Assembly: GCA_002049455.2 (NCBI GenBank)
Contig: KV918869.1
Span: 159,250-223,249 of the forward strand
Direction: 5' to 3'
Source: Porphyra umbilicalis
Taxonomy: Eukaryota > Rhodophyta > Bangiophyceae > Bangiales > Bangiaceae
DNA length: 64,000 nucleotides
The notes beneath the pieces were generated by a model. That model had not been told where the DNA came from. It made no database searches and saw only the letters and a list, made by a program, of their open reading frames with translations. Of this stretch, positions 20,403 through 59,570 are shown in pieces. The position numbers and the translations under genes are program-made. Every line of letters starts with the position of its first letter. Position 1 is the first letter of the stretch.

Positions 20403-20691
20403 TCGGGCATAGTGGACGTGTCCTGAGGAAGCGGATCGGGCGGGCTGGCCCGTGCGGATCTGTCAGGAGGCGGATCGCAAGGTGGGATCGGAATTCGGTT
20501 CGGGGTACAAGGGGCGCTCTCGTGTGGAGTATGAAAATGACCTACGAGGGGTTTACTGGTCGCTGACGTGCCGACCGGCACCGTCGACGCAACGACACCT
20601 TCTACACTCTGAGCTTCTACAACCCCGTGGGGTAGTCCCCTCTCTCCCGTCATGCTTCATCCTCCCCTTGCTCAGCGGCGCCTCGAGGCGG

Positions 20692-21326
20692 GCCCACTCG
20701 ATACGGAGGATGGCCCACGGGGTATGCCGCCTCGCGTGGAGGTCGTCCTTCGTGTCCGCGGGGACCCACGGGAGTTCCGCCATGCTGCCGTATGGTAAAT
20801 CCACCCCGTAGCACCACGCGGAGCTCGGCAGGTTCAAGCGCGAGCGGGTCGCCGTGGCACAACTTAGGTACTCAGCTCCATGACGGGCTACGACGTGGCC
20901 TGTGAGCCCGCCCCGGTGATGGTTGCGGGCGGTCGTCGACTGGACCATCGCGGGGTCTTCCTTGTCGGACGCCCCGATGAACGGGGGAGACGATAAGGTG
21001 TAGGCGAAGGTCGGCACCAACGGTGGGTCCGCGGAAGGGTCATCCATGAAGCCGACGTAAGAACGGCGGTACCCCACCTCGCGGCTACGCCGAACCACGG
21101 TGATCGACGAGGCTCGGTCATCAAGAGACGGTACGCCGGCGTGAGGCTTGGCGGCAGTCTGCTTGGCGAACGGGTTGTCGGGGCGCACCGAGTCGATGCC
21201 CAGGAACGACGCGTGGGCCAGCGTGTCCGCTTCGCCCATGCGGGCCTCCTCGCGCTCTCACGCCGGCGCCCACGTCGTCGGGTTGGGCAACACGGGTAGG
21301 GGGCCCACGGCGGTCGAGGATGCCAT
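20692..21326 (-). pseudogene. Remnant of the gypsy antisense ORF (copy A)
   Basis: On the strand opposite to gag-pol, this matches codons of the intact 544-codon frame at 49017-50651. It has the same ATG position (21326), a TGA at 21258-21260 and then about 180 codons of alignable protein such as DRASSITVVRRSREVGYRRS. Homology ends near 20692, and the C-terminal two thirds are deleted. In a 37-codon block, 10 of 14 base differences from copy B lie at third codon positions. The function is unknown. Confidence 0.65.
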
Positions 21327-21933
21327 CTCATCCCATTGTCGGCCACCGCGGAGGACGACGCAGACGCGGACACCTTGTGGTCGGGCGGCCGCCGGGTACT
21401 CGGTCCGACAAGAGTGGTGGGGGCAACCGCGTGGTGGAGGAGGGGGGGGGGGCGTGGGAACCCCCAACGGCCGGCAGAAGCAAGAAGCAAGAAGCGACGG
21501 GCACCATGGGGGGGGCAGTGGACGGCACGTCGTGGAGTGGGAGGAGGAACGAGTCGGCGAACACAGCGTCGCAACCAGCGCGGATGCGTGACGTCGCGGG
21601 TTGGTGTGGAGGGGCCGCGGAGTTGCACGTGATGGAGGGGGGTAAGACCGGGGTGTGCGTGTGGGCCCACGGGGGGGGGGTGGTGCCAACGTGCGTCACG
21701 AGGGGTATTGGGGCCGCGAGACACCGGTGCATCTCGCACGCCACGCCACGCCGGTGGGGCGGGGGGCAGATCCCGTCCGCGGACCGACCTCGACAATCTC
21801 TCTGGAGAGGGGATCGGGGGGAGGGGGGGTGGCGGTTGTGGCCGACACGCGGCCAGGGGGCCGGGCCGGAACCCCCTCCTCAGAGTTCGTCGCGGGACGG
21901 GCACGGACGCCACGTCACGCGACGAGTGGGCTG
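21327..21933 (+). other. Gypsy copy A region between antisense ORF and 3' LTR
   Basis: This G-rich segment is shared with copy B (50652-51137 and 52102-52162) and ends in the purine-rich GAGTGGGCTG before the LTR. On the minus strand it is Pro/His-rich and open in parts, which could be an N-terminal extension or a leader of the antisense frame. It has no recognised domain. Confidence 0.5.
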
Positions 21934-32866: not shown

Positions 32867-32881
32867 TTATGGTCCCAGCTG
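32867..32881 (+). promoter_or_regulatory. Copia-2 primer-binding site (half initiator tRNA-Met)
   Basis: GGTTATGGTCCCAGC abuts the LTR and matches the anticodon arm of initiator tRNA-Met with one mismatch, as in the other copia elements here. Confidence 0.8.
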
Positions 32882-36559: not shown

Positions 36560-37186
36560 CGCTTCATGTCCGGCCCTGAGGAGGACCACATGCACGCGGC
36601 CAAAGGGGTTCTGCGGTACCTGCGCGGGACGACTCGCCTGGGTGTGGTCTACAGCGGCAGCAAGCCGCTGCAAGGGTTTGTCGACGCCGACTGGGCCGGC
36701 GAAATCGACGGTCGTCGGTCGGCAACCGGTTTCATCTTCACCTGCAATGGAGGGGCAATTGCGTGGGCAAGTGAGCGCCAGTCGACCGCGGCCACCTCGA
36801 CAGCCGAGGCCGAATACGTGGCCGCCGCAATGGCGACCAAGAAGGCGCTGTGGCTACGCAAGCTGCTGTCGGCTCTGGGCGTCGACGATGGAGCCGTGGC
36901 GATGGGGGAGGACAACCAGTCCTGCCTGGCGCTGGTCAACAACCCCGAGGCGACAAGGCGGACCAAGCATGTCGACGTCGCCTACCACATGGTCCGCGAC
37001 TACCAGGCACGCGGGGATGTGGCCTTCTACTTCCTTTCGAGTGCCGACGTGCCGGCGGATGGGCTCACCAAGCCGTTGCCGTCGCCGGCGTTCACAGATT
37101 TCCGGGCTGCCGTCGGGGTTAGCAAAGACCTGGCCGCGGCTGAGCGGGGCGGTGGGCCTGGCGACCGCCTGTTGGATGAGTGCTGA
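36560..37186 (+). pseudogene. pol: Copia-2 RNase H
   Basis: It continues in phase after the TAG, with GFVDADWAGEID, STAEAEYVAA, MGEDNQSCL and PADGLTKPLP. It stops at TGA 37184-37186 without other breaks. Confidence 0.9.
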
Positions 37187-37443
37187 GACGCCATGGCGCC
37201 ACTCGAGGCGTCCATTGGCGCGGCCTCGGATTCGCGGCAGAGTCCTCCGTCGACCTTGCCGCGAGCTGGTGCCAGTCGTGGACGGTTGCGCTACCATCCA
37301 CTTGTCTGGGGCCGGCAATGAGGCGCTGTTGCCTTGGGGGGACGGCCGGTTGGGACCGTCCTGGGGCACTGTGGCGCCACTGGGGGCGACCAGTGGCGCA
37401 GCCGCGGTTTCCCGGCGATCGCCCGACTCGATTTGGCCGAAGT

Positions 37444-37675
37444 CGATTTTGGGCCGTTTGGCCGGGAGCAGTAGGCCTGCTGCTCCCGACGGGCACGAGT
37501 CGATTTTAGTGCAAGTCGATTTCGGTCGATTTTGGCCAACAGTAGGAGGCCTACTGCTCCCGACGGGCCCGAATCGATTTTGGTGCAAGTCGAATTTGGT
37601 CGATTTTGGCCGACAGTAGGAGGCCCCGATTTTGGCCGCGAGCAGTGGGCCTACTGCTCCGAGAGAGCAGACTTT
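37444..37675 (+). repeat. 74-83-bp tandem repeat in the copia-2 3' region
   Basis: Three units beginning CGATTTTGG at 37444, 37527 and 37601 each carry GTAGG(A)GGCCTACTGCTCC-type sequence. They lie between the RNase H stop and the 3' LTR, the same place as the copia-1 tandem duplication. Confidence 0.75.
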
Positions 37676-37979
37676 GACGGGCCGCCGATGCGCCGGATCG
37701 TCTCCGTTCGAGACGCACCCGGGTGCGCTGTACTCACCTTGACGTCTGCATCACGTCGATGGTCATTTTGGCGATTTCGGCGGTGGTCGATTTTACTTCG
37801 CCGAAATCGGCTCGACTCGCTGGAAGCTGTAGTCCTACTGCTCCCAGCAAGTGGAGCCGATTTCGGCCAAGTCGAGAAGATCGACTTCGCCGCTTTCTCG
37901 ATCGCGGATGTTTGCGGAAGATCTCGCACTGTGGCCGTGACGGAGCGTCCATGGCGCGGACCGTGGGGCGCTGGGGGAG

Positions 37980-38378
37980 TGTTGAGGCAGCCCCCAAAGC
38001 CCGCGCAGGTAAGTCGGTATTACCGTGCACTGCCCGGCTAATTCCGGGAGTACTTATGCGATCATCGGCTTGTTTGGCTGTGCCATTGTCATACATTGCT
38101 GTATGTGTGTGATGTAATTACTTGTACTTGTGTATTGAGGGCAGCTCCTTTTGGAGCTGAGCTCGGGGAGATTCTCGTGGGGTCATCGAAGGGCGTTGCG
38201 ATTTTTGGGGTGATGAGAGCACGTACCCTCCAAGGGAGGAAGCACTGCGCTGGCGGAGGAGTGCGCCGGCAGAACGTGGCGAGAGAGGCACACAGAGGGT
38301 TCAAGAGCCTGCTGGCCTCGCGCCTCAGACCGCTCTCGAGTAAAGCCACGCATCCAGCTAACTTTTGCTTACGTCACA
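37980..38378 (+). repeat. Copia-2 3' LTR
   Basis: The 399-bp LTR is preceded by the purine-rich GGGGCGCTGGGGGAG (37965-37979), a likely polypurine tract, and followed by the second GCGAG. Exon coding resumes at 38384. Confidence 0.9.
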
Positions 38379-38383
38379 GCGAG

Positions 38384-41595: not shown

Positions 41596-41600
41596 CGCTC

Positions 41601-42098
41601 TGTGGCGGCCGGGGGTCTTACAGTTGGAAGGGGCGTGGCCCCTCAGCTGTGTACAGCATACCCCCGAGGGCCGTCTCAAAATATCCCGATCCGGGCCAGC
41701 AAGGGAATGACCTGTCCAGATCTGGGGGAGATTGGATTCGGTCGGGGGCGGGGCTTTTTCGCCAGTGGTTTTCCCAATCCCCCTACTACTTGTTTGAACT
41801 TTTCGCTTTGGAGGGATCTATCTGTTTGGCGCAATGGGGTGGCTACTTTGGCCACCGGCGTTCGGGTTGGGGAGGGGTTTATTGACAGCGGGGACGCCGT
41901 CCCCGTCGCCGTTTGATAAAACCAACTGTGCTTTGGACTACGATTCTCCCCTGGGCTTTGCCGTGATCCTCTCCTCCCGTTGGGGGAAGGCTGGGCTGTG
42001 GGTCGATTTCCGGGGCAGTTCCTTCGACGGACCGAGCTGATCAAGAGGTCACTTCGGCAACACGACGAACCAACGTGGTGGTGCTTAGAACCGCTACA
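41601..42098 (+). repeat. Gypsy copy B 5' LTR
   Basis: It is 498 bp, TGTGGCGG to CGCTACA. The first 170 bp differ from the 3' LTR at roughly eight positions. A candidate primer-binding site (ATGGAGCAGCAGGGG) follows at about 42106. Confidence 0.9.
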
Positions 42099-42241
42099 AT
42101 TTTTGATGGAGCAGCAGGGGATTCCGGCCGTTGCCACGCCCGCACCGGGTAGCCGGTTCCGCGATCGTCTGTTGGTTTGTGAGTTCAAGGCGACGTGGAT
42201 CTTCGCGTCGGTCTGTCGTCGATTACCGCCCGGCTACTACG

Positions 42242-43918
42242 ATGGCGTCGCCGTCCGACATCCCCAAGTCGAACGCGATCGCTAGCGGTATGCCGGCGGG
42301 TACATCCGCGGTGACCCCAGCGGTCGCTGCAACAGGGGGATCCGCGCCTGGATCAGGGATTTCCTTCACTCCGCCTCGGCCATTGGCGGACCTCTTGGGC
42401 GAAACGGTGCGTCGGGTCCTGCTGGGGGCCGGCGCCTTCCTCCCTCGACGTCGCGACGAACGGACGGGATGGGTGGATCAAGATCGTGATCCGGCGACGC
42501 CTTTAGCAATGGCCGATCTGGACACGGCGCTGTTGACGTTCCGCGAGTCGTTTTTGGCCGACGTTTCTCGGGTCATCGCGGCGAGCCCCGCGGGTTCTGC
42601 TCAAGATGCCCCTCGCCGAGATTCTCCCGTGGACACGCGGAAGAGCCGCACCAAAGAGAAGTCACGGCGTCACCGTAGTCCGTCGTCGTCATCGTCATCT
42701 TCATCTGCCTGGCCGTCTCCGGCGACAACCGACAACGACGACGACCAGGTGGGGCGCAAGGTGGGGTCCGGCAAGTTGGCGGTCCTCGAGTGCCCGGACG
42801 ATCGCTTCGCGGGCGTCCGGGACTACCGATCGTACCGCCTACGGAACCGTCACTCGACCTACGGGGCGTCGCAGGCCCGCAAGATGGGACGGACGGCCAA
42901 GAATATGAAGTTCTCAGTAGGGGGCACCCCGGTGTTCAACGGGAAGGAACCCCTCAAGGTCTTCTCGTGGCTCCGCAAGTTCGTCAAGGCCTGCGATGAC
43001 AACGACATGTCCGAGAGGATGGGTTTGTACCTGATTCCCAACCTCCTCGCGGGCGACCCTGAGACGCGGTTCACTCGGAACGTACCGCGGTCGGATATCG
43101 CGGGCGGACGGGGCTCGCTTGGATCTTTTCCCGCGGCGGTCAATTGGCTGTTGTCGACCTACGCGGAGCCGCACGCTTTGGGGCTGGCGCACGACAAGTT
43201 TAGCCGGGCTGCGCTCGTGGACAACGAGGGGGTGGATGCCTTTGCGGCACGTCTACGGAGTCTCGCTGAGCTTTGCGACAACATCCACTCCGAGGGGACG
43301 ATGAAACAGCAGCTGATCCAAGGCCTACCGGAGTACCTATGGACTGACGCCTTCTTGTACAACTCGGCGCAGCGAAGCTACCAGCAGTTATCGACGTATG
43401 TGGCGGGGAAATATCGGGCCGACAAGGACGTCATGGCGTTGCCCAGCCGGGGGGCACCCGAAGGATCATCGCGAAAGGGACAGACGTCGACGGGGCCCCG
43501 AGGCCTCTCGGTCAATTAACTCCACTCCCCGTGGGAGGAGGACGACACGGCGACGTACGACACGGTCACGGTGCTGCCGTCGGGTACTTCGGGGTTCCGC
43601 ACGGCTGGAGGAGCGCCCTACGCTCGGCGGGAGGCCCCGACGGGCCCCCCTCTGCGCCTACAGTGTTGGACGCGCAGACACCGGGTCCCTGATTGCAAGA
43701 TTCTGACGTACAAACAGCGGGACCTTGTGAAAGCCGGGCGGAGAACCTTCCTTAGACAGAGGAACGCGGGGGCGGGCGCCGTCGCTGATCGCACCACCGT
43801 CGTGGCCCTGGTGTGGGACGACCTGTTGGGCGGTGCGGAGTCAACGAGGACGGATGGGGGGGACGCCCCGCCCGTAGCAACCTCGGCCAAGGGGCGCCGC
43901 GGGGCGGGAAACGCCTAG
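42242..43918 (+). pseudogene. gag: Gypsy copy B gag, one internal stop
   Basis: ATG 42242 (MASPSDIPKS) opens a 558-codon Gag colinear with copy A. TAA at 43517-43519 replaces CAA of copy A. The zinc knuckle is degenerate: LRLQCWTRRHRVPDC lacks the first cysteine seen in A. The frame ends at TAG 43916-43918 after the slippery heptamer. Confidence 0.85.
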
Positions 43919-43940
43919 AGGGGGTGGCATCGCCATCCCC
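43906..43940 (+). promoter_or_regulatory. -1 ribosomal frameshift signal between gag and pol (copy B)
   Basis: GGGAAAC at 43906-43912 has the same phase as in copy A. After eight bases, the stem GGGGTGGC (43921-43928) with GCCATCCCC (43932-43940) has the same loop ATC. The spacer sequence differs by one base from copy A (TAGAG against TAGGG), so the signal is kept while neighbouring bases drift. Confidence 0.8.
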
Positions 43941-44870
43941 CTCCATCCCCCCTGTCCGCCCCATTTCCCCGGTCGCCCCCCGCCACGTCACGTTTGCCTC
44001 CCCTGGGGAACCGCAACGTGGCCTGTCCCGGCCCGATGCCCCTGCCGTCGCGGGCGATATCGCCGGCGGTTCAGGGGGACGCTGTTGCTACTACGGAAAG
44101 AGAATTATGAGATTTGCGCGTCGTACCAGTTGGCGCCGTGGCAGACCCCCGTCCGCACGAGGGCGGTGGTGGACACTGGCGCCCGGCCAAGTGTGATCCG
44201 CGCGGATGTGTTGCCCGAAGGGTTGACCGAGTATGCATCGCGGGCGCCGCCCCGGACCCAAGTGAGTGACGCCTCGGGGCAGCTGCTCAAGGTGAACGCG
44301 GAGGTATCGCTGACGATCTACGTCGGGGGTGCCGCTATGGAGTATGAGTTCCTCGTGGTCAAGGCATTGTCGGTACCGCTCATACTCGGGTGGGACTTCC
44401 AGCGCAACTACGTGGACACCATCTCCCCCAAGACGCAGACGATCAAGTGGGACGACGGCACGTTCACGGTGGCGCCGCGGAGCTTGACGAAGAACACGCG
44501 GCCCGCGCCCCCTCGCCGAGGAAGCAAACCGAAGGCCCAAGCTGGGGCTATCCGGCTCCGGCAAGGGGTAACAGTGGGACCGCGGTGCATCCAGGTGGTC
44601 CAAGTGTGCTTCAACGTCAAGAAAGTCCACCTGGTACGGGAACGCCCCGTCAAAATGAGCCGACAGAAGTTGCTGTTGCACAACGCCGTCGCGGAGTTCT
44701 CCTCCAACACCCCGCGGTCCCTCAACCTGATGGACATCGGGGACGTGCCGGTGCACCTCACTAAGGGGTACGTCATCGGAACCGCGACGGCCTACAGTGG
44801 ACCGCTGCACGTCGTCGAGGAGGAGGAGGAACCGGAGGCGGTCCGAACGATGGGGGGCGGACCCCCGTGA
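43906..44870 (+). pseudogene. pol: Gypsy copy B protease
   Basis: The -1 frame starts as GKRLEGVASPS. A one-base loss near 44003 shifts it, and the protease continues from about 44085 with VVDTGARPSVI (the usual Gly/Ala after DTG altered to Arg) and ILGWDFQRNY. The frame then runs through the RT leader to TGA 44868-44870, where an extra G relative to copy A causes another shift. Confidence 0.8.
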
Positions 44871-46392
44871 CAAGCCCGACAAGGAGGTCAAGACGGGGCG
44901 GCAAGCCGAAGAGGGGATCGACGAGGGCCAACCTCCCCCTCACCCGCCGGACAAGACGTATCCCAAGCCGGAGGTCCACTGGGAGGGCGTCCCCGACACG
45001 CTTCGTGGTGACGTGGACGACCTGCTCGAGGAATACAGGGCGCTATGGGCGGGACAACTCGGCAAGGTTGACGTCACCCCGCACCAAATCGAGGTGACCC
45101 CCGAGGCACGGCCACGGCGGGCCCAACCCTTTCGTGAGAGCCACCTGTCGAGGGACATCATCGCCAAGGAGGTGCAACGCCGGCGGGACCTCGGGGTTAT
45201 CGAACCCCCAAGTGCCGAGTGGGCCTTCCCTGTGGTTCTGGTTCCGAAACCCGACGGAACAGTGCGGTTCTGTGTGGATTACCGCCGGTTTCACGAGGTC
45301 ACGGTGCGGGATGTGTACCCGTTGCCATGTATGGACGATTGTATTGACTTCCTCGGGGACGCCAAGGTGTTTTCGACGCTCGACTGCAACTCGGGGTATT
45401 GACAGATCCCCGTGGCGGACGAGGACCGGGACAAGACGACCTTCGTTTGCCACGAGAGGGCCTATCGCTACATCCGCCTTCCCTTCGGTCTGTCCAATGC
45501 CCCGGCGACCTGCCAACGGGCCATCGACATGATCCTCGGGGGACTCAAGTGGAAGAGCTGCCTAGTGAACCTCGAAGATATCATCGTCTTCTCGCAGACG
45601 GCGGGGGAACACGTGGAACATCTCCGGGAGGTCTGCACGGCGCTGCGCGGCGCGGGTGTCTCCCTGAAGGCCAAGAAGTGCCACTTGTTCCAAGAGGATG
45701 TGAAGTATTTTGGCCATATCGTGGGACGGGGGGAGCTGAAGGTACAAGGCAAGAACATCCGCGGACTCAAGGAGGCGTCTCCCCCGCGGTGCAAGAAGGA
45801 CCTACGTAGCTTCCTCGGGATGTGTAACGTGTATCGGAAGTTCGTCAAGGACTACGCCCAAGTGGCACGGCCGTTGGCCGCCATGACAAGTTCCAAGAGG
45901 CCCGACCGGTGGGGGGCGCTGTCCGACGAGGCCCTGGGGGCATTCGAGGAACTCAAGAGGCGACTCACGGAGGCCCCCATCCTCGACCTGCCGAGGCGAT
46001 AAGGGACCTACACGTTAGACACGGACGCAGTTGCGGGGCAGGTCGGCGCGGTCCTTTTACAAGAACAAGCCGACCAATCCACGCGGCCCGTTGGCTATTG
46101 GAGCCGCTTCCTCAACGCGGCGGAGCGAAACTACAGTACGACTGAGCGGGCATGCCTCACGGTTGTGTTGGCGTCCCTGCTCCTCCGCCTCTTCTTCGAG
46201 GGGACCCACTTCACGGTGCGCACGGACCACGCGGCGCTCAAGTGGATGCTGCGTATGGACGGGGCTCACGGGAGGCTGGCGCAATGGCGGTTGCGACTGG
46301 CGGAGTTCGACTACGCGGTACAGACGCGCCCCGGGGCGTCACACCATGCGGTGGACACGATGTCACGCATCTCAACACCCGCGGGAGACTAA
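44871..46392 (+). pseudogene. pol: Gypsy copy B reverse transcriptase and RNase H
   Basis: RT motifs are EWAFPVVLV, PDGTVRFCVDYR, FSTLDCNSGY, LPFGLSNAPATCQRAID and the active-site segment CLVNLEDIIVFS, with NLED instead of YLDD as in copy A. RNase H shows LDTDAVAGQVGAVL and RTDHAALKWM. Stops are TGA 45400-45402 (TGG in A), TAA 46000-46002 (CAA in A) and TAA 46390-46392 (AAG in A). Apart from these, the frame is continuous. Confidence 0.9.
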
Positions 46393-47263
46393 GGGGCGAT
46401 ACCTGACGCGGTACCTTGTATGGCGTTGCCCAACTCGTCGGCCGCGTGGCAGTCACCGCCGGAGACCAAGGGGGGACTCCTAAGCCCCCTGACGCTCGCC
46501 GAGCTCCTCGAGGGGCAGGCGGAAGACGGACGGTGCAAGGCGGTCCGCGCGGCGATGGACAGCAACGAAAAGTCGCGGTTCCGCGAGGACCCGAACGGCC
46601 TGTTGGTGCGCACGGCGCTGTTGGATGGGGCCGCGCAAGTCTACGTGCCGACCCACATGCGCTACGGGGTGATGATGCGGGAGCACTACCCTTCGCAAGC
46701 CGGGCACCCGGGGGTGAACAAGATGTACACGTCGATGCGACGGTGGTTTTATTGGGAATCAATGGTGGTGGACGTCCACGCCTTCGTGGCTAACTGTACG
46801 CAGTGCGCGAGGAACGGCGTCGGCAAGCGACGCAAGACAAACTACCTCAATAGCTTTCCCCCGACGAAACCGCTGCCGGATCTGTGTATGGACCTGCTCA
46901 GCCCCCTCCTTCGGACGGCGGCGGGAAACGAACACCTGTTGGTCATCGTGGATCGCTTCTCCAAGATGGCGCGGGCCATCTTCCTCCAGAGGATTGACGC
47001 GGAGACCATCGCGGCAGCCTTTTTGGACAACCGGGTGGCGGCGTACGGACCCCCGGCGACGTTGTTATCGGACAATGGCCCCCAGTTCCGCTCCACGTTC
47101 TTCCACGGGGTTTGCTCGCTCCTCGGGATCTCCAACCGGTACTCCACGACGCACCACTCGCAGACGAACGGCCAAGTGGAACGGTACAACCGGACCATCG
47201 TGGGCCAGTTGCGGACGTACGTCGAGGACCACCAAGACCGATGGGACGAGTTGGTGTCGATGC
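46393..47263 (+). pseudogene. pol: Gypsy copy B integrase core
   Basis: The zinc-binding HHCC region (HMRYG, REHYPSQAGH, CTQC) precedes the catalytic D in VIVDRFSKM, D in LLSDNGPQF and E in NGQVERYNRTI. The hAT-type element at 47264 interrupts after WDELVSM. Ignoring it and one 8-bp duplication restores phase with 47853 onward. Confidence 0.9.
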
Positions 47264-47845
47264 CAGGCCCTACCATACGTATATTGTGAGTAGGTGTTTT
47301 TACAGGTGTAAGTGTCTGAACTCTCGTACCCGTAGGCAGCAAGGCGGCTGGCACCCACACCCATATCAACAATTGAGTAGGTAGCCGTGGGTATTTATCA
47401 ATTCCGACCGACAGCGGAGTTAAACCCAAAAGAGCGCGCCAATCGAAGGCAATAATGTCCTTTCACCTCCGCTAAGTACCAATTGATATTTGGACTTGAT
47501 TTGAATTCTACAACGGTTCTAGTTGGGGTGGATTTACCGTACCGTGGTGTGCTCGCCAAAGGGCGCCCGTTAGAATTCTCACGCGAGCCGTTGACAACGC
47601 CGCAATCAGGATGACTCACGTGACGGAACGGATCCGACATGCTCGGGAAAAATAGGCGCTTGGCGCTGCGAAAGATCGGTAGCTGTTCCAAATCAATGAA
47701 TTTCGGAATTGATTCGTACTCGTGTTTTTAAGGTATGTTTCGTATTGATACACGTGAGGATATACGTGGCCAGTACTCGTACTCGAATTCAACGATTTGT
47801 ATATACCGTACCCGAAGCTGAAAACGATACTTATGACAGGGCCTG
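47264..47845. mobile_element. hAT-type element in gypsy B integrase (582 bp)
   Basis: Termini CAGGCCCT and AGGGCCTG are perfect inverted repeats with the exact 8-bp duplication GTCGATGC (47256-47263 and 47846-47853). The interior has GTACCCGTAGG, GTGGGTA and TACCGTACCCG motifs near both ends and no transposase. Confidence 0.85.
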
Positions 47846-48728
47846 GTCGATGCTGACGTTGGCCTACAACAGCCGACCGCAGCAGAGTACCGGGGTGGCG
47901 CCCCTAGAGTTTGTCACCCCCGAGCGGGTACGGAGTCTCTCCGTGGAACGCCTCGTCGGCTCTTCGGCACCCGAGGAGACGGACGGCAGCCCACGAGCTG
48001 TCCGCGGGGGCATCCGAGCGCGGCAGCGGAATCTGATCCACAAGGTGCGGAAGTCCCTCACGCTGGCACAGCGGCGGTAAAAGAGGAACTACGACGCCCG
48101 CGTACGACCAGTCAACAAGGACGTCCACGCGGGGGACTGCGTGTTTGTCGATGGCCACGCGCGGACCAAGTATAAGCTCGGGACCCGCACGGTAGGACCG
48201 TACAAGGTGTTGTCCCGCGGGGAGGGCACGTTCTCGCTGGAAATCGGCGGGTACCCTGAGACGGTAAGCAGCGACCATGGGCCGGCGGCGCCGGGCCCAC
48301 CGGGGGATCCGCAGACGCTCCTGCAGAACCTCGGGGTGCCCCAAGACATCGAGGTCCCAAAGGGGCATCAACACATGGGCAAGGAGTTCGTCTGGGAGGC
48401 CTTCGTGGGCCATAAAGTCGCTGACGATGGTACGCTACGCCTGTGGACCCGCTGGTGGGGGTATCACCCCGAGGAGGACACTCTCGAGTTGGCCAGTCGG
48501 TTCGACAAACGTAAGGTGCACGAGTATGGGCGGCGGGTGGGCCTACGAGTCGAAGAAGCCGGGACGGTCGTCGACTTCCTCGCCTCAGGCAATTCCCACG
48601 TGGGACACGTGGTTTTCAAGTTTCGAATCTTGGTATATTTTCGGGTTCGACACGTTTCCCGGTTGGAACCACGTGGCCGTGGTGGCGACCGTCCCGACTG
48701 CGAGACGGGCTGGCCATCTTCTCCGTGA
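47846..48728 (+). pseudogene. pol: Gypsy copy B integrase C-terminus and chromodomain
   Basis: After LTLAYNSRPQQSTGVAPLEF a TAA at 48078-48080 breaks the frame (TAC in copy A). The GPY/F-type VGPYKVLSRGEGTFSLEI and a chromodomain-like LWTRWWGYHPEEDTLELAS follow in one frame to the stop at 48726-48728. Position and aromatic residues fit chromovirus integrases. Confidence 0.85.
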
Positions 48729-49016
48729 CACGGAAGGGGTGGGAGTCAAGGCGATCGGGCGGCGTGGACGGTATCAGGGGGCGGGGTGGTACGTGATGGC
48801 TGACCAACGGGGGCCGATCCAATGATGGACCACGACGGGGGGCCAAGATTCGGCCTGACAAAGAAGAGGCTCTCCCAAGGGTGATACGCAATCGACCCGC
48901 ATGGGGTATATTGGTCGATGACGCGCCGTACGGCACCGTCCACACTACAACACTCCCCCTACACTACTACGCGGTACGACTACCACTCCCAAGGGGGCTG
49001 TTACCCCACCCCCGGG

Positions 49017-50651
49017 TCAGCGGCGGGCCGACGAAGGCCCACCCCACTCGGGACCGGGCGGACCACGGGGACGCTGCGCCGCCGGCTCCTCCTGGTAGGC
49101 GTCGCGGTCGCGGTGATGCTGTTGACGGCGGTTGGCCCCGCCGGCGGCCACGCCGACCTCGCGAATGAGAGCCGCGCGGATTCTACGACGACCAACCAGC
49201 TGAAGCAACTCCTCCAAGTGACGGGGCGGAACTTCGGGGTGGTCGCGGGCCCACTGGGCGATCAATTCGCCAAGGGAGACCACGGTGTGGCTCAAGCCGG
49301 CTACAAGGGTCCCCGTGGTGTAGCCGCGAAGTTCCCCGGGGTCACAAGCCACGACGCGCGCCAAACCCTGCGGGAAACGGTCCGAGGGGATGTGGTCGAG
49401 TTGGTCAAAGGCCACGTCGGGGATGTCACGGTGTTCCACGGGGTCGAACGAGACGATGAGGCTACCCCCGGAGCTACCCCGAGAGGGGGCGGCGGATGCG
49501 GCCGGCGGCGACGGACCCGGAGGGGACAACCCCGCGGCACCAGTCACCACGGAGGTAGCGGGCGGTCCGGCTCCACCCCCGGGGTAACGCGGGCTGCGGG
49601 CAGCCGAGACGGCGGCGGCGCAACCCCCACGAGCAGGGCCGTAGCCACGCGCCTCGAGGATGTCCGCGGTGTACGGAAGGTCGAAGGGGCGAAGGTCCTC
49701 GGCGACCTTGGCGTGAGTGCCGTCGTCGTCCACCTCGAGGGACGCCCAAATCCAACCTTCGAGGTCTCGGCGGTCGGTGCTACGCGCGCGAAGGCGCTGG
49801 CGGAAGGCCTCCGTGTCGGGAAGCTGGTCCACGAGGTCCAGCAAAGCCCCGAGGGTAGCGGCCCCCTCGGCGTCGGGACCCGCGGGGTTGATGCAGATGT
49901 TGGACGCCCCGAGGGAGCGGATCCAATCGAGGAGACGCGGGGGGTAACGCCACAAGACTTGGCGGGTGCGAAACGTCTCTAGGAGAACGACGGCCGCCGC
50001 GAGGGCCCACTCGCTACGGAAGACGGCCCAAGAGGCACGCCGGCCCGCGTAGAGGTCGTCCGTGGCGTACGCGTGCACCCACGGGAGTTCCATCATGCAG
50101 CTGTATGGGACCTCCACCCCGGACCACCACGCGGGAGTCGGCAAGTAGAAGCGCGAACGGGTCTCCGTGGCACAGCTCGAGTACTCCGCCTGCTGCCACG
50201 CCACGAGGTGCCCGGTAAGGCCGCCCCGGTGGTTGCGAGCTGTAGTCAGCTGCAACGTCGTGGGGCCCTCCGCGTCCGACACGCCGATGAAGGGCGGGCA
50301 CGTGAGGATGTACTCGAGGGTCGGCACCAACGGCGGGTCCACCGAAGGGTCGGCCATGAGGCCCACGCAGGACCGGCGGTACCCCACCTCGCGGCTGCGC
50401 CGCACCACGGTCATCGACGAGGCGCGGTCTTCCAAGGAAGGCGCGAGGGCGTGCGGCATCGCCGCAATGTGCTTGACGAATGGGTTGGAGAAGCGCGTCG
50501 GGTCGATGCCCCGGAATGTCGCGTGGGCCAGCGACCCCGCCACCCCCATGCGGGCCTCCTCACGGGCCCACGCGGGCGCCCACGTCGCCGGGTTGGCCAG
50601 GACGGGCAGGGGGCCCACGACGGTCTGGTAGCGCATCTTCTCGTCGGCCAT
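49017..50651 (-). CDS. Antisense open frame of the gypsy element, 544 codons, unknown function
   Basis: This frame lies between the chromodomain stop and the 3' LTR, on the strand opposite gag-pol, and converges with pol. ATG 50651 (MADEKMRYQTV) is chosen because copy A has an aligned ATG at 21326. The longer frame to 51245 begins inside a hAT insertion. The N-terminal 200 codons are conserved in copy A with base changes concentrated at third positions. The middle has ordinary globular composition (LPYTADILEARGYG), then a Gly/Ala/Pro-rich linker, a helical segment (HLEELLQLVGRRRIRAAL) and a basic tail. No membrane segment, zinc finger or known family is visible. It is intact although gag and pol are broken. 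Confidence 0.65.
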   Translation of the reverse strand: MADEKMRYQTVVGPLPVLANPATWAPAWAREEARMGVAGSLAHATFRGIDPTRFSNPFVKHIAAMPHALAPSLEDRASSMTVVRRSREVGYRRSCVGLMADPSVDPPLVPTLEYILTCPPFIGVSDAEGPTTLQLTTARNHRGGLTGHLVAWQQAEYSSCATETRSRFYLPTPAWWSGVEVPYSCMMELPWVHAYATDDLYAGRRASWAVFRSEWALAAAVVLLETFRTRQVLWRYPPRLLDWIRSLGASNICINPAGPDAEGAATLGALLDLVDQLPDTEAFRQRLRARSTDRRDLEGWIWASLEVDDDGTHAKVAEDLRPFDLPYTADILEARGYGPARGGCAAAVSAARSPRYPGGGAGPPATSVVTGAAGLSPPGPSPPAASAAPSRGSSGGSLIVSFDPVEHRDIPDVAFDQLDHIPSDRFPQGLARVVACDPGELRGYTTGTLVAGLSHTVVSLGELIAQWARDHPEVPPRHLEELLQLVGRRRIRAALIREVGVAAGGANRRQQHHRDRDAYQEEPAAQRPRGPPGPEWGGPSSARR

Positions 50652-51137
50652 CGCGGAGGACGACGCGGGCACGGGCGTCCCGTCGTCGGGCGGCCGCCGG
50701 GTCCTCGGTCCGACAAGGAGGGGGGGAGGACGGGAACCCCCAAGTGCCGACAGAAGCAAAAAGCAGCGGGCACCACGGGGGGGGTCGACGGCACGTCGTG
50801 GCGTGGGCGGAGGAACGAGTCGGCGAACACCGCGTCGCAGCGAGCGCGGAGGGTTACGTCGTGGGGTGGCGCGGGGGAGGTGTGGAGTCGCCTGTGTAGG
50901 TGGGGGGGGGTGAGCCCGGGGTGTGCGTGTGGGCCCACGGGGAGGGGTGGGGCCAACGTGCGTTACGGGGGGTGTGGGGGCCGCAAGACACCGGTGCGGG
51001 CCGCGCGACACGCCACGCCGGTGTGGCGTGGGGCCGATACAGTCCTCGGACGGAACTCGACAACCCCTCTGGGGCGAGCATCGGGGAAGGGGGGGGACGG
51101 TTGTGGCCGGCACCCGGCCAGGGGGCCGGGCCGGAAC

Positions 51138-52093
51138 CAGGGGCTGAGGTGGAGAAAGTTGAGCTAAATATATCCGCACAGTATACTCGGATATATCCAT
51201 ATTCATGCCGTAGCTGCGTATTCTTAATGTACTCTGTCCATGCACCGACGATTATAATGTGCCTTGATAATTCTCTGTGGTCAGGATATAATGTAACCAG
51301 AGTGGAGATACTTTGCCTGAGTTTATCCGACTCCCGGAATCGGCTGTGCGCTACAACAACAGTCTGGGGCAGCCCTTGCGACGCCGCAGGCGAAAAAGAT
51401 GCTAATGTTGGCTACCAGATATGCGATAGGAGCTGGACCTTCGCAAATAAGAGAGAAATGTGTCTGGCACACCTGAGCCGGATGCCCGGACCACGACGTG
51501 AAGGTATTTGGGTAACCGCAGCATGATCCTATCCCCTTCGCGTGAGGAGCAGCCCTGCCGCCCTGCTTCTCGTCGCATAAAAACTGCGCCTCTTTGCTGT
51601 CACAACACCCTCCAGCGTCGACCACTGTTGCACCCCGACGAGCACTTGTCTTGACTTGGGGAGCACTGCCCGCAGCACCACAAATCTTTCTGTGTCCGAC
51701 GACGAGATTGTAGCTTTTAGTTTGCACGCTGGAATTGTGCCGGTACACCATACCACTCCAGTTTCCCAGGAGATTGAGACCACCTCAAAACGTACGTTGG
51801 CTGGCGCCAGACTGTGTTGGCGGCGTCGTCGGACAACCTCTCGTTGGTACATGCGTCGATCCCTATTTGCGCAGAAGTGTCCTTGGACGGAATATACTCA
51901 CTCTAGGTACACAGATTATAATCGAAATCGGAGCGATAACCTATCCGAATATAATGCTGATCCTGAATCCGACCGACGAGGTCAGATCCGAGTCCAGATA
52001 CATGATATCATCAAAAACTCAAATCTGAGTGCATGCCAGCGCAACTGGAGTATATTCAGATTCTATGAAAAGTGACAGATTCAAAAGCCCCTG
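51138..52093. mobile_element. hAT-type element near the gypsy B 3' end (956 bp)
   Basis: It runs from CAGGGGCTGAGG to AAAAGCCCCTG with the exact 8-bp duplication GCCGGAAC (51130-51137 and 52094-52101). Its left end matches that of the element at 17042 (CTGAGGTGG, ATATCCGCACA), so the two are one family. No transposase is present. Confidence 0.85.
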
Positions 52094-52162
52094 GCCGGAA
52101 CCCACTCCTCAGGGGTCGTCGCGGGACGGGCAGGGACGCCACGTCAAGCGCCGAGGGGGCTG

Positions 52163-52332
52163 TGTGGCGGTCGGGGGTCTTACAGTTGGAAGGGGCGTGG
52201 CCCCTCAGCTGTATACAGCACACCCCCGGGGGCCGTCCCAAAATATCCCGATCCGGGCCAGCAAGGGAATGACCTGTCCAGATCTCGGGGAGATTGGATT
52301 CGGTCGGGGGCGGGTCTTTTTCCCCAGTGTTT
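52163..52332 (+). repeat. Gypsy copy B 3' LTR, left part
   Basis: The first 170 bp of the LTR, preceded by the purine-rich GAGGGGGCTG, end where copia-4 inserted. The duplicated target reads TGTTT here and TGGTT at 57289-57293, and an intact LTR has TGGTT. Confidence 0.85.
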
Positions 52333-52750
52333 TGTTGAATCGCAGTGGATATAGGGGTTGGGGGACCACGGTGAAGTGGTTGAGTGGCTTGAGCTTGTGT
52401 GTGTGTGTGCGAACGTGCTTTGTTGGTTGTCCTAAGGTTCGCCCGCCTCTCCCAACCGAGAGCACCTCTCAAATAGTCCCCACCGGCCCAAGTGCTCCCC
52501 CCTCTCGCGCCCACACCGACGCCCACGCCCTCGCATCAAATCGAATCACTCACCAAATCAAAAGCCACTGGAGCAAAGCGAAGATCAAATCCAAAACATG
52601 CCAAAAGTAACGCCCCAAGATGACCCAACACAAATGTGTGCAACTTGACCACGTCTTGCAAATGTACCATGTGGGGTACCATAAGGGTCACCGACCATCA
52701 TCCATCCGCGAACCGCCAGTGGAGTCGGCGACGAGCATCACAGTCCAACA
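52333..52750 (-). repeat. Copia-4 3' LTR
   Basis: Read on minus, it runs TGTTGGACT to GATTCAACA. AAGGAGGAG just upstream on minus (52751-52759) is a likely polypurine tract. Confidence 0.9.
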
Positions 52751-52785
52751 CTCCTCCTTGCTTGTTGCCGCGGCGGTTGTTTTTT

Positions 52786-55700
52786 TCAGCAAAGCCCCAT
52801 GGCCTTGACATGCTTGTCGTGCGTGGTCTTGCCGAGCTCATTCGTCATCGGTTCCGCCACCATGTCGTCCGTTGCACAATGCTTCAGTGTCACCTTGCCC
52901 GTCATGATGGCCTCGCGCACAAAGTGGTAGCGAATGTCGATGTGCTTAGTGCGCTTGTGCTCGACGGGGCTCTTGGAGAAGACAATGCACCCGCTGTTGT
53001 CGACCTTGATGTTGATTGGCCCGCCCCAGATCGCTGTCCGCAGCCCTTGAGTTGCCACGCTTTGCACGAGCTTGTTGAGTCAAACAGCTTCCTTGCTGGC
53101 CTCACATAGAGCCATGTACTCGGCTTCCATCGTCGACAGCGCCACCGTCTTCTGCAACTTAGAACCCCAGCTGACGGCTGCTCCGCCAAAGATGAAGGTG
53201 AAGCCCGTCGTTGAACGTCGCGTCTCGTGGTCACCCGCCCAGTCGGCATCACTAAAGCCTTGTAGAACACAGGAAGAGTTCTTGTCGAAGACCAGCCCCT
53301 TATCCATCGCACCCTTGACGTACCGTAGAACGCGCTTGATCGCCGCCCAATGCTCCTTGCCGTAGCACGAAACAAACCGACTCAGCTTCCCGATAGCGAA
53401 GGCGAGGTCAGAACGTGTCCCGACCATCAGGTACATTAGACTGCCGACGGCTTCGCGGTAGGGCAGCGCGTCGTCGCTCTCGTCGGCCTGGACCAGCTGC
53501 AGGCCCACTTCCAGCGGCGTTCCGATCGGGTTGCACTCCGCCATCCCGTACTTTTTCAGCACTTGCGCCGCGTACTTGCCCTGCGACAGCTTTAGGGTGC
53601 CCAACGCCTTGTCACGCCGAATCTCTAGCCCGAGGATGTCCTTCGCCTCGCGCTGATCCTTCATCTCAAAACGCTGGTGCAGAGCGTCCTTAATCTTCTA
53701 GATCGCCGCCAGGCTTGATGCCATAAACAGGAGATCGTCGACGTACACCAGGACGATGATGATTTCGCCGTCATCCATGAGGAGGTAGAGGCATGCATCC
53801 GGGTCAATGTTGTCAAAACCCTGCGACTGGAGGAAGTCGTCGAGCTTGGCGTACCACATCTTGGGAGCTTGCTTCAGCCCATACAGCGCTCGGAGGAGAC
53901 GACACACGTTTTCAGGATACGTCGGATCGACATAGCCGTCTGGCTGCTCCATGTAGACCTCCTCGTCAAGGTCGCCGTTGAGGAATGCCGTCTTGACGTC
54001 CATCTGATGTAGCTCCCACCCGTTTGCCGCCGTCATCGCCAGGATCCATCGAATGGTGGTGAACTTGGCCACCGGCGCGAGCGTCTCGTTGAAGTCGAGC
54101 CCCTTGATCTGCCGGTTCCCCATGAAGCACAGGAGCGCCTTGTGACGCGTCATGTTGTTCCCGTTCTTGTCAACCTCGTTCTTGACCTTGTAAACCCACT
54201 TGCCCTTCAGCACGCGTCGACTGGCCGGGCGATCCGTCAAGCGCCAAGTCTTGTTCTTGCGGATGGTCTCCATCTCCTCGTCCATGGCAATCTGCCACTT
54301 AGCCGATTCCTGCCCGTGAACGGCTTGCACGTACGTCGTGGGCGCCTCGTGAGCAACCAGGATCACCGGGCGCCAGTACTCCACATGGGGTCGCCGCGCT
54401 CTGCCGCTCCGACGCAGCGTGTCTTGAGAGCCGCCACTACCTTGATTGTCGTCCGCGGACTTGTCAGATCCACCGCCTTCCTTGTCATCCTTGTCGTCAT
54501 TGTCAGCATCCATATCTTCGCCGTCGCTTGCAGAGCGCAAACCCGTCTCGACTCCGACGTTTTCGTCTCCGGGAAGCTCCTCTGCTAATTCTGCCACCTC
54601 GCTTACGTTCGACTCGGCGAACACGACGCTTCGTGCCTTGACGACCTTGCCGTCGTCGAGGATGACCTTGTACGCCTTGCTGCCGTCGGGATAGCCTAAG
54701 AAGACGCCCTTCGCCGCTTTGTCGCCAAACTTGCCGTCGATGTGACTCTTGTGCAGCACCACCCAGCATGTCGACCCAAACACCCGCATGTGGCTTACGT
54801 CGGGCTTATTTCCGGTCCACAGCTCAAAAGGCGTCTTGCCGACGGGAAGCGCCCGGCTGGTGGCGCGGTTCTTGATGTAGACCGCCGTCTTGATGGCTTC
54901 CGCCCAAAGATCTTGATCCACATCCTTGTGTCGCATCATGGTGCGAGCCATCACCACGAGAACTCGGTTGAGCCGCTCAGCAACCCCGTTCTGCTGCGGC
55001 GTGTCGGGCACCGTGGTCTGGTGCGTCGTGCCGTTCTCATCGTGAAGAGCCTTGAATGCATTCGACACATACTCGCCGCCATTATCGGAGCGTAGGATCT
55101 TGATCTTGGTTCCTGTGTGCAGCTGGGCCTTCGTCCGCCACTTCTCGTACTCAGAGAGCAGATCGCTCTTCTTCTGAAGGAAGACCACGTCTGTCCAGCG
55201 GGAGAAGTCGTCGGTGAAGGTGCCAAAGTAGAGCGCACCGCCACGCGACGGCTCCGACATTGGCCCGCCCAGGTCCGAGTGCACGAGCTGCAGGCGCTTG
55301 CTGACTCGACCTCCTCCTGCATTAGGGATACGCGTCATAGCCGCCTTCCCATACACGCACGGCTCGCAGACGTCCTTGACCGCCATGGAAGAGCACTTGA
55401 GTCCATCGATGTCCTTGTTCTTGATCATCCGCTTAACGCCAGCCACGTTGACGTGCCCAAGGCGCTCATGCCAGAGCTGAAGAGAGACCAACGCAGCAAT
55501 ATCCAACAGTGGGGCCGTGTCCAGGTGGTAGAGCCCACTCTTCCGCGTGCCGCACGCAGCGACCTTGTCGCTAATCATGATGATCGTCTTACCGCCCTTG
55601 AATGACACTTCCGCACCACGCTCCTCCATCATGCCGACCGACATGAGGTTGAAACCCATGGTAGGCACATGGAGTACCTTCTTCAACTTGATCTTTCGCG

Positions 55701-56709
55701 TCTTGCCGTGAACGATGACATTGAGCACGACGGTTCCGACGCCCACTGTGGCTACGGACCCCTTGGCACCCATCGTGACGCTCCGTCCCGTGGTCGTATG
55801 GTAGTCGTCAAAGCACCCGCGCATCCAGCGCATGTGTGCAGACGCCGCAGAGTCCACAAGCCACGACTTGGAGATGTCATTGGTGTCAGCTGCATTGCCC
55901 ACCAGACGGATGGCGTCGTCGCTGTCGCTACCATCGTCAGCCGCAATCGCGGCCACCTTGTCCTGTCTCTGCTTCTTGGCCTTGAGCTCTGGGAAATCGC
56001 GAGAGAGGTGCCCAAGCGTATGGCAGTATTAGAACTCGATCTTGGAGAGGTCATTACGGCGGCCTTGACCTCGATAGTTGGCGCCGACGAGTGCCATGTC
56101 CCCAATGCGCTTCGTCGCCGGTGACTTGTCCGCCTGCCGCCGCTCCTCCTGAAGAAAGCGGCTCTTGACAAAGTCGAGACTCCGCTCGTCCTCGCCCTTG
56201 GCGACGAGAGCCACCAGCAGGTTCTCGTACTTGGACGTCAGCCTGTTGAGGACGCTCATGGCAACGTCCATCTCCGTCACCGCGCCACCCATGGTCTTGA
56301 GGTTCTCTCCGAGGTTGCGCACGCGGTTGATGTAGCCCAGCATGCCCTCGCCGACGGTCATTTCGACGGTGTAGAACTCGCGTCGCGCCTTCATCTTGTT
56401 CATCAAACTCTTGCGCTGGAAGACACCTTGCAGCGTCGACCACATTTCCGCCGTCGTCTTGCAGCCCGCCACGTGCTCGAGCTGCTCATATCCAAGGGTG
56501 AGCCCGATGATGGCGCTCGCCTTCGTGTCTCGACGCTTCCACACCGCCAACTCGCGGGCATTCGCGTCCGTCGGCTTGCCGTCTTCGTCAAGCATATCGT
56601 CCAGGTCGCGCAGCGCGAGGACCATCTTAATGCGCTGACGCCACTCGTGGAAGTTCGTCTCCGTCAACTTGTAGTTGATGCCGCCCATGCCGGCATCGCC
56701 TCCGTCCAT
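52786..56709 (-). pseudogene. gag-pol: Copia-4 gag-pol, single frame with three stops
   Basis: The frame from ATG 56709 (MDGGDAGMGGINYKL) to 52786 is continuous over about 1308 codons, except for TAA 56029-56031, TAG 53698-53700 and TGA 53080-53082. Gag belongs to the UBN2-type family (NFHEWRQRIKMVL). The zinc knuckle is degraded around the TAA (YCHTLGHLSRDF). Protease has WLVDSAASAHM; integrase has CEPCVYGK, LVHSDLGGP, RSDNGGEYV and NGVAERLNRVL. RT has MDVKTAFLNGDL and YVDD in VLVYVDDLLF. RNase H has FSDADWAGD and VDNSGCIVF. No frameshift is needed. Confidence 0.9.
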
Positions 56710-56852
56710 GATGTCTTCTTGTCGTAGCGTCCGACCTTGCCGAGCCGTGCGCCTTGACCGTCACGTCCTTCAACCACCTTGACCTCGTCTTCTTCGCACT
56801 TGCCGCGACCGTCGCGACACCAGCTTGCACACCTTGCTCTTGTCACAGCCCC

Positions 56853-56870
56853 GGCTCTGGGCCCATAACC
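56853..56870 (-). promoter_or_regulatory. Copia-4 primer-binding site (half initiator tRNA-Met)
   Basis: On minus, GGTTATGGGCCCAGAGCC follows the 5' LTR directly and matches the initiator tRNA-Met anticodon arm without mismatch over GGTTATGGGCCCAG. Confidence 0.85.
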
Positions 56871-57288
56871 TGTTGAATCGCAGTGGATATAGGGGTTGGG
56901 GGACCACGGTGAAGTGGTTGAGTGGCTTGAGCTTGTGTGTGTGTGTGCGAACGTGCTTTGTTGGTTGTCCTAAGGTTCGCCCGCCTCTCCCAACCGAGAG
57001 CGCCTCTCAAATAGTCCCCACCGGCCCAAGTGCTCCCCCCTCTCGCGCCCACACCGACGCCCACGCCCTCGCATCAAATCGAATCACTCACCAAATCAAA
57101 AGCCACTGGAGCAAAGCGAAGATCAAATCCAAAACATGCCAAAAGTAACGCCCCAAGATGACCCAACACAAATGTGTGCAACTTGACCACGTCTTGCAAA
57201 TGTACCATGTGGGGTACCATAAGGGTCACCGACCATCATCCATCCGCGAACCGCCAGTGGAGCCGGCGACGAGCATCATAGTCCAACA
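56871..57288 (-). repeat. Copia-4 5' LTR
   Basis: It is 418 bp, almost identical to 52333-52750, with TGTTG/CAACA ends. The gypsy LTR sequence resumes at 57289. Confidence 0.9.
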
Positions 57289-57622
57289 TGGTTTTCGTTA
57301 CCCCCCTACTACTTGTTTGAAATTTTCGCTTTGGAGGGATCTATCTGTTTGGCGCATTTGGGGTGGCTACTTTGGCCACCGGCGTTCGGGTCGGGGAGGG
57401 GTTTATTGACAGCGGGGACGCCGTCCCCGTCGCCGTTTGATAAAACCAACTGTGCTTTGGACTACGATTCTCCCCTGGGCTTTGCCGTGATGCTCTCCTC
57501 CCGTTGGGGGAAGGCTGGGCTGTGAGTCGATTTCCGGGGCAGTTCCTTCGACGGACCGAGCTGATTAAGAGGTCACTTCGGCCAGACGACGAACCAATGT
57601 GGTGGTCCTTGGAAACGCTACA
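57289..57622 (+). repeat. Gypsy copy B 3' LTR, right part
   Basis: It continues TGGTTTTCGTTACCCCCC to CGCTACA and is followed by the CGCTC duplication. With 52163-52332 it gives a full-length LTR. Confidence 0.9.
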
Positions 57623-57816
57623 CGCTCGTGGGCGGGGGCGGGAGGGGCGGGGGGCACCGTAACCCCGCCGCCCCCTACCCCCCTCGCGTGGACGTCGGCG
57701 GCTGGCGGCAGTGGCGGCAGCGGGGGTGCCAGCGGCGGTCTTTCAGCGGCCGCGGCGGTGGCGGTCGCGCCCCCGCCGCCGGTGACGCCACCGGCGGTGA
57801 CGCCGTCGGGCCTCGC

Positions 57817-58197
57817 TGTTGGCACGCCGGTGTGTCGTGTACTTCCGCAGTCCCCCAGGGTCAATTGGCCCTTGAGTAAGTCGTAAGTCTCTGTATTTGT
57901 GTGGTGACACTGCATGTTCTTGAATGTAGATCTTTCAGCGGGGATCCAATTACGGGTTGAGCTCCGGGAGACATTTGTGTGGGGAGAGGCGCCTGGAGTG
58001 TGAGGCTGTGGGCGCCTTCCGGAGATGCGGAAGCTGTTCTGCGGGGGGCCGTTCGGGCCTTGTCGGCAGCGCCATTGAGGGTGCCTGGGAAGGCCCTGCG
58101 GCTGAGGTGGCCCAGGGGATATCAGGGACGCCTTCACAGGCCTGGGAACACCGTGCCTAGTAAAACAACGCACCCACTCAACATCATCGACTTCACA
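57817..58197 (+). repeat. Copia-3 5' LTR (start uncertain)
   Basis: The end is fixed by the primer site that follows. It shares GATATCAGGG and AACAACGCACCCAC-type sequence with the other copia LTRs. The left boundary is a guess from TGTTGG. Confidence 0.6.
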
Positions 58198-58211
58198 TGT
58201 TATGGGCCCAG
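58198..58211 (+). promoter_or_regulatory. Copia-3 primer-binding site (half initiator tRNA-Met)
   Basis: TGTTATGGGCCCAG matches the initiator tRNA-Met anticodon arm complement except for its first base. Confidence 0.8.
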
Positions 58212-58352
58212 TGTCGCTGGTGGTGATCGTCGTCTTCCGCTCTGTCGTTGCGAGACGGCGCTTGTTGGGCTGCTGTGTGTTTCGGCGTCGGGCGGGCGGG
58301 CTTAGCCTCCCACGTCGTCAGTGTCGCGCCGTGGGGCGCGATTGTTGTCGTC

Positions 58353-59570
58353 ATATCGGAGTACGCGCGCTACGGTGGCCCTCACTTTGCGCAGCTGGAC
58401 GATGATTACAAGGTCTGGGCCGTGTACTGCCGTGCACAGCTCATTAAGGAAAAAGTGTGGTCGGCGGTCGTGATGGACCGCCCCGCTTCCGCGATAGATT
58501 CCAAGGGCAACTTGGTGGCGGACGCGTGGGACATCATGAACGAGTCAGCGTTGGGGACCATCCAGATGTCGGTCAAGCCGGTTCATTTCAATTCGGTGAC
58601 GGTGGTCATTACGGCCAAGGACGCGTGGGACGCGCTCAAGGAAATCTTTGTGGCGCGTGACAACGCACGGCTGCTGCAGCTCATGCACGAGCTGAGAAAC
58701 CTCAAGAAGGACGGCGACGAGAACATCATCAAGTACACGTCGCGCGCCAAGGGCCTCCGCCAAGAACTTGCCATGCTGGGCAACCAGGTGGACGAGAACA
58801 AACTCGTGCTGGAGATCCTGTCGGGTCTTCCAGCAGAGTACGAAATGATCAAGACTGTCCTGAAGAACATGGACGGGAAGCGCAACCTCGCCGAAGTTAG
58901 CGCCAAGCTTCTCACGGTGGAGCAGTGGGCCATCCGAGGGCGTTCGTCGTCGTCGACTGGCGTCAAGTCGCAAGCGTTTGCGGCATCGGCTACCAAAAAG
59001 CCGTGGGACAAGAAGGCGGGCGTGTGCTACTACTGCAACAAGAAAGGGCATATGAAGCGCCACTGCCTCAAGAAGAAGGCCGACGACGCCAATGGCAACA
59101 AGAAGCCAGGCGGCGTGGGTCGGGATGGTGGCGTGGGCGGTGGTGCAACTCCCCGTGCCGCATTGGCCTACGCCGCGTCGGCAGGCCTGGCCGGGGAGCA
59201 CAAGACTCCCGATAGTCCCAGTGGGATGTCGCCCTGGGTGCTGGACTCCGGCGCGACCAACCATATGGCCGCCGGGGGGAAGGGCTTCATCTTCAAGACG
59301 TCGGGAAGCGGGGCCAAGGTCACTCTGGCTGACGGTCAAAAGGTGTCCATGAAGGGGCGCGGATGCACTTCCATGGACGTGATGGCGGGAAACACCAAGG
59401 TACGAATGGTCCTCGGTGAGGCCATGCTCGTGCCAGGCCTGACGGACAACCTGTTGTCTGTGCGTGCGGTCGCCCGCCGCGGCGGAGCGGTGGTGTTTGT
59501 CCGAGACGCCTGCAACATCCTCAGCGATAGAGAGGCGGTACTCGCAAGCGGGGTCGGAGCAACGCGTCTG
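58353..59570 (+). pseudogene. gag-pol: Copia-3 gag and protease
   Basis: The codon aligned with the copia-1 start is ATA (58353-58355), so the start is lost. Gag then runs as SEYARYGGPHFAQLDDDY with an intact zinc knuckle CYYCNKKGHMKRHC and protease WVLDSGATNHM. A frameshift near 59560 ends the open stretch before the integrase. Confidence 0.85.

Follow-up and report, generated by a model that had tools for sequence, protein, structure and literature searches.

Purifying selection on an antisense accessory gene of Ty3/gypsy elements in the red alga Porphyra umbilicalis and its truncation in one element lineage

Additional open reading frames in antisense orientation (aORF-3R) have been described in plant Ty3/gypsy elements of the Tat/Retand type, and examples are Grande gene23, RIRE2, and Retand ORF4 (PMC7264820, PMC11963269). 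Grande gene23 is reported to have its own promoter and to encode a nuclear protein, and an antisense ORF between pol and the 3' LTR is also named for Boty of Botrytis and PvRetro13 of bean (PMC7264820). Most antisense accessory genes of LTR elements described so far come from plants, and a function is not known for them (PMC7264820). In REM1 of Chlamydomonas, a truncated integrase is encoded in reverse frame, with only the GPY/F module and the chromodomain being kept (PMC2774666).

Here we report on an antisense gene in a Ty3/gypsy element of the red alga Porphyra umbilicalis, located in a window of 64,000 nucleotides (contig KV918869.1, positions 159,250 to 223,249), the whole stretch of DNA that was analysed. 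Antisense accessory genes as such are not new; compared with the systems named, it is the protein family, the host group, and the natural loss lineage that differ here. The position of the antisense ORF is the same as in Boty and PvRetro13, which were likened to our element by description only. The green-algal chromovirus REM1 is similar in being an algal Ty3/gypsy element with a reverse-frame coding unit. However, the chromodomain of REM1 is part of this reverse unit, which reportedly also contains a PHD finger, whereas the integrase tail of our element is read in the sense direction and Pfam gave no match of weight for the antisense protein. In contrast to the Retand type, which is non-chromoviral and has been studied in plants, our element is red-algal, is accompanied by a truncated lineage that serves as an internal control for selection, and encodes a different protein. 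TRP28 (Transposase_28, PF04195) is absent from this protein and had no match in the genome at E values up to 10.

The host element and its antisense frame

The gene resides in copy B, a Ty3/gypsy LTR element extending from 41601 to 57622 with the 5-bp target duplication CGCTC on both sides (Table 1). LTRs of the form TG...CA and a target-site duplication, as in LTR retrotransposons, are thereby present. The 3' LTR is interrupted by a copia element (52333-57288). With 25 differences between its two LTRs among 498 sites, copy B is not young. Stops in its pol, which an earlier note on this DNA had claimed from the letters alone, were located at 45400, 46000, and 46390 in the RT-to-integrase stretch and at 48078 in the pol tail. 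In the C14 copy, on which the domains were named, RVP in one frame is followed by RVT_1, RT_RNaseH, Integrase_H2C2, and rve in the next frame. A chromodomain-like motif in the integrase tail was noticed by eye; Pfam Chromo gave no score there at E values up to 10, and, judged by eye, the elements studied coincide with none of the 150 Chromo matches listed for the whole genome. The label chromovirus given in the earlier note depends on this motif and is tentative. In the genome as a whole there are at least 150 Chromo matches (148 above the cut-off), many of them in frames of 1505-1541 codons with near-identical scores. The relative C22, which lacks the insertions of copy B, measures 9533 bp. 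Its antisense gene starts about 565 bp inward of the 3' LTR, and 379 bp separate the gene stop from the pol stop.

The intact antisense frame of 544 codons reported in the earlier note was confirmed on the minus strand, running from an ATG through 544 codons to a TGA. It was also placed correctly between the pol stop and the start of the 3' LTR, where its 3' end faces that of pol on the opposite strand. From stop to stop, 744 open codons were observed at this locus. A chance open frame or shadow frame might be suspected in DNA of this composition, the region having 65% G+C and the elements 64-67%, all the more so as frame -1 on the opposite strand contains hardly any stops either (0-5 per copy). 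Against this, none of 500 simulated sequences with the dinucleotide content of 48901-52090 contained 544 or more open codons in any frame, the maximum being 483. Together with the selection on the antisense frame and its conservation in far relatives (see below), this makes a chance frame extremely improbable.

Table 1. Features of copy B and of the copy A remnant in the window
Feature	Position	Strand	Evidence or remark
Antisense gene remnant in copy A (truncated lineage), residues 5-220	20679..21329	-	tblastn match
5' LTR of copy B, TGTGGC...GCTACA	41601..42098	+	target duplication CGCTC at 41596-41600
Copy B pol with RT, RNase H, and beginning of integrase; stops in frame at three sites	45142..46821	+	match C109:204391-206070; domains named on C14 copy
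Insertion of about 580 bp inside copy B pol	47264..47845	.	absent from 7 of 7 other elements aligned (five B-family, C19, and C154)
pol 3' end with integrase tail, chromodomain-like by eye	47847..48728	+	stop 48726-48728
Antisense accessory gene, 544 codons, ATG to TGA	49017..50651	-	intact frame; dN/dS 0.30, 29 copies
Core domain (antisense protein residues 180-335)	49647..50114	-	AlphaFold2
5' region of the antisense gene, ATG to copy B insertion; candidate promoter or leader	50652..51138	-	
Insertion of about 950 bp between gene and 3' LTR, copy B	51139..52089	.	absent from 5 of 5 B-family elements aligning there
Purine-rich tract GAGGGGGCTG adjoining the 3' LTR, putative PPT	52153..52162	+	read from sequence
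3' LTR of copy B, first part	52163..52333	+	
3' LTR of copy B, second part	57289..57622	+	target duplication CGCTC at 57623-57627

The window harbors further mobile DNA. Three copia (RVT_2) LTR elements at 9709-15363, 32460-38379, and 52333-57288 have LTR pairs that are 100%, 90.9%, and 99.3% identical, respectively. Two of them are nested in copies A and B, and two of the three show 71-76% similarity to a fourth stretch at 58156-62444. A 352-codon ORF with a DDE_Tnp_4 domain at 22849-23907 represents the transposase of a DNA transposon. An inverted repeat (30499-30857 and 31540-31898) consists of 359 nt with 98% complementarity and an inner 89-nt pair.

Selection on the antisense protein and its relatives

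A search of the 83.8-Mb genome yielded at least 84 matches to the antisense protein (80 of 288 candidates scored). Each of the best 29 matches spans 532 or more of the 544 residues, and an internal stop is absent from 14 of them. For the comparison of reading frames, pooled dN/dS values were calculated by the Nei-Gojobori method from 29 of 30 loci out of the 84 matches, the partial locus L030 being left out. The antisense frame showed a dN/dS of 0.30 (bootstrap 0.26-0.35), as compared to 1.40, 1.66, 1.27, 0.41, and 1.72 in the other five frames of the same 29 copies. The frame with the value of 0.41 has its third positions in common with the antisense frame and contains 10-18 stops per copy, and the value of 1.27 belongs to the opposite-strand frame -1 mentioned above.

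Windows of 300 bp were analysed in 6 C22-type and 12 B-type copies of the 30 loci. In both types the coding signal starts at the ATG and stops at the gene stop. All windows inside the gene ranged from 0.23 to 0.44 in the 12 B-type copies; in the 6 C22-type copies, codons from about 301 to 450 were weakly constrained (0.87-0.91). Outside the gene, no consistent signal was found (single windows down to 0.48) until the opposite-strand pol was reached in C22-type copies. The B-type pol flank gave no coding signal in these windows because indels shift the frame, and it was re-aligned for the comparison with pol. This comparison included 20 of the 30 loci, ten being left out for cut or interrupted flanks. 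Gene and pol end of the same 13 B-type copies gave dN/dS values of 0.32 and 0.33; in 5 C22-type copies the gene was less constrained than the pol end (0.31 versus 0.21). Intergenic, upstream, and LTR segments read in six frames resulted in 0.67-1.03 for the B-type and, from fewer copies, 0.49-1.28 for the C22-type. Purifying selection on the antisense protein is about at the level of that on the pol end, and a conservation comparable to pol, as seen in the B-type copies, is one of the criteria for antisense aORFs.

The claim that selection acts on an antisense protein, and that the frame is not a product of chance, is supported by this low ratio over 29 copies and by a signal found only between ATG and stop. 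A dN/dS near 1, named beforehand as the result that would speak against the claim, was not seen. Nor do young copies carry stops: the frame is free of them in two near-full-length copies with LTR identities of 99.4% and 99.8%. The antisense frame is almost certainly a real protein-coding gene under selection.

In 20 copies, divergence was also low from about 142 to 565 bp upstream of the ATG, which would be in keeping with a promoter. This segment is, however, about equally conserved in truncated copies of the element, so its conservation does not point specifically to an antisense promoter.

The gene occurs in at least three element families of the genome, in the other two of which it is 36-41% identical and likewise antisense. 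One of these families comprises C19 and C154 (LTR identity 98.8% and 98.1%), where the gene is found at the same antisense place, has no stop, and shares 36-37% identity with that of copy B over 542 columns. Their LTRs did not match those of copy B, and at the DNA level the similarity of their two long pol stretches to copy B is 66-69%. Between C19 and C154, the dN/dS of the gene is 0.38. In the third family, represented by C70, the gene lies opposite in strand to pol, 1351 bp downstream of the pol match, and carries one TGA. Another pol relative, C70:84354-86015, is 60% identical with an open frame of 1363 codons; among the matches listed it has no antisense relative up to 5 kb downstream.

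Database searches resulted in 41 related proteins (sources jgi and ena). A profile search gave 33 proteins, two of which were already among the 41, and two are hypothetical proteins of Pyropia vietnamensis, a bangialean red alga. The gene model of P0049 (Pyropia vietnamensis MMPV_002403) places a different N-terminal part ahead of the antisense-family protein and may be an annotation fusion.

The truncated lineage

The aligned remnant that the earlier note had placed in copy A (20692-21326) is real, with a tblastn match of slightly different borders (Table 1). An excess of third-position differences (10 of 14) had been claimed for a 37-codon block common to copies A and B. The direction of this excess holds over the whole alignment, whereas the exact block was not found and had been a favourable one. 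Among 659 aligned bases, 43, 39, and 68 differences fall on antisense positions 1, 2, and 3, and the dN/dS is 0.45. This pair is a weak test, because copy A belongs to a truncated, relaxed lineage, and it is the many-copy tests that decide.

Searching with the remnant gave at least 40 matches of 90-100% identity (40 scored of 117 candidates), and the truncation itself was checked in 16 copies, 13 of which were used for dN/dS. In these 16 copies the gene extends only to about codon 216, its last 60% being lost. The alignment breakpoint, with an 8-base overlap, is identical in fourteen of them and slightly different in the remaining two. A nonsense codon at codon 17 of their own frame is common to 5 of the 16 copies, which indicates that elements spread after the frame had been broken.

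In 13 truncated copies the remnant shows a dN/dS of 0.67 (0.52-0.86) as opposed to 0.36 (0.30-0.44) for pol. For comparison, the first 217 codons of the gene in 20 B-type copies gave 0.36 (0.27-0.47). The closest pairs are consistent with this: 0.18-0.23 for pol (6-44 pairs, 13 copies) versus 0.60-0.68 for the remnant (11-103 pairs, 16 copies). As the remnant is relaxed while pol is constrained, the low dN/dS in intact elements is no quirk of base composition. A value of 0.67 is still below 1 and may reflect some past or residual constraint on the remnant. Moreover, pS in the truncated lineage was 0.193 for pol and 0.105 for the linked remnant (L037, L039, L054-L077, and copy A of the window), opposite to the long-gene elements with 0.157 for pol and 0.225 for the gene. 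The higher divergence of pol than of the remnant suggests recombination between lineages, and the dN/dS values of remnant and pol may reflect different time spans.

These data also bear on the idea that the antisense RNA is what matters, through a dsRNA-based control, and that the open frame is incidental. A possible function at the RNA level is discussed for antisense transcripts of LTR elements in PMC7264820. In our elements, however, the constraint follows codons, is confined to the region from ATG to stop, and weakens in copies with a truncated protein, which leaves this explanation very little probability.

The multiplication of the truncated lineage with a constrained pol indicates that spread does not depend on the protein being supplied in cis. 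Its success fits a dispensable or self-limiting gene as well. Downstream of 78 pol loci, the long form was found in 30 cases (decayed fragments included), the truncated form in 33 (including three loci added beyond the matches of the remnant search), and neither in 15, these gene counts being lower bounds. Hence, with part of the candidates scored, most pol loci are followed by the antisense frame or a derivative of it, as is characteristic of antisense aORFs. When the count is limited to loci with a stop-free match and an open pol frame of 1300 codons or more, 4 have the long form and 6 the truncated form, and neither was found in 3.

If the protein restrained the copy number of its own element, the truncated lineage would have escaped this restraint, and its abundance, about equal to that of the long form and with at least 40 remnant matches, agrees with such a self-limiting factor. 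Yet the copy numbers are lower bounds from only part of the candidates, and self-restraint could hardly be maintained by single-copy selection over the depth that the 36-41% identity between families represents. We regard a self-limiting factor as improbable.

The protein and its possible role

A core of 156 residues (residues 180-335) was predicted by AlphaFold2 from 38 sequences with a pLDDT of 87.9 and a pTM of 0.82; the C-terminal part is predicted to be helical with low confidence. No fold match was found for the core, and in four family members no Pfam match of weight was obtained, with a single TerB_N hit below threshold. Profile and structure searches hence revealed no recognisable similarity, as had been noted at the outset. 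Ideas on function are thus derived from position and evolution.

A structural or nucleic-acid-binding protein of the particle, such as a second Gag-like or an Env-like protein, would agree with a constraint similar to that on pol and with a folded core followed by a presumably helical C-terminal part. On the other hand, there is no similarity to the gag frame of the element (best BLASTP E value 2.8, one copy) and no weighty Pfam match. The sense orientation and transmembrane segment by which Env-like proteins are recognized are not found in the antisense frame: no transmembrane-like stretch was detected in four members, with Kyte-Doolittle 19-mer maxima of 1.38-1.51. Given the antisense orientation, a particle protein would also need a transcript of its own. 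It is doubtful that the protein belongs to the particle rather than being a regulator. A chromodomain was not found in the four members scanned.

Taking all evidence together, we consider it likely that the gene encodes an accessory protein that is kept by selection and able to act in trans, perhaps in the control of expression or in escape from silencing. A separate antisense transcript would originate from the segment between the gene and the 3' LTR. The soluble two-part protein translated from it would act on the spread of the element and could be supplied in trans, and truncated elements would use protein made by intact ones. Control of element expression or escape from host silencing would be the most likely role in trans. 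Judged separately and from sequence evidence, a helper role that can be exerted in trans seems rather probable, and a regulatory or counter-silencing role in particular can be proposed tentatively. Grande gene23 offers the best analogy for the mode of action. The most specific version, a counter-silencing or expression-control protein acting in trans, with a core fold unseen in solved structures and with the truncated lineage as a cheater living on the protein of intact elements, is speculative and, as a whole, rather unlikely.

With this red-algal case, a different protein is added to those encoded by antisense accessory genes. Selection on this protein is directly evident, its conservation is deep, and a lineage that has lost most of the gene exists in the same genome. 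Intact and truncated elements side by side make it a testable question which role the antisense protein plays, and for whom.
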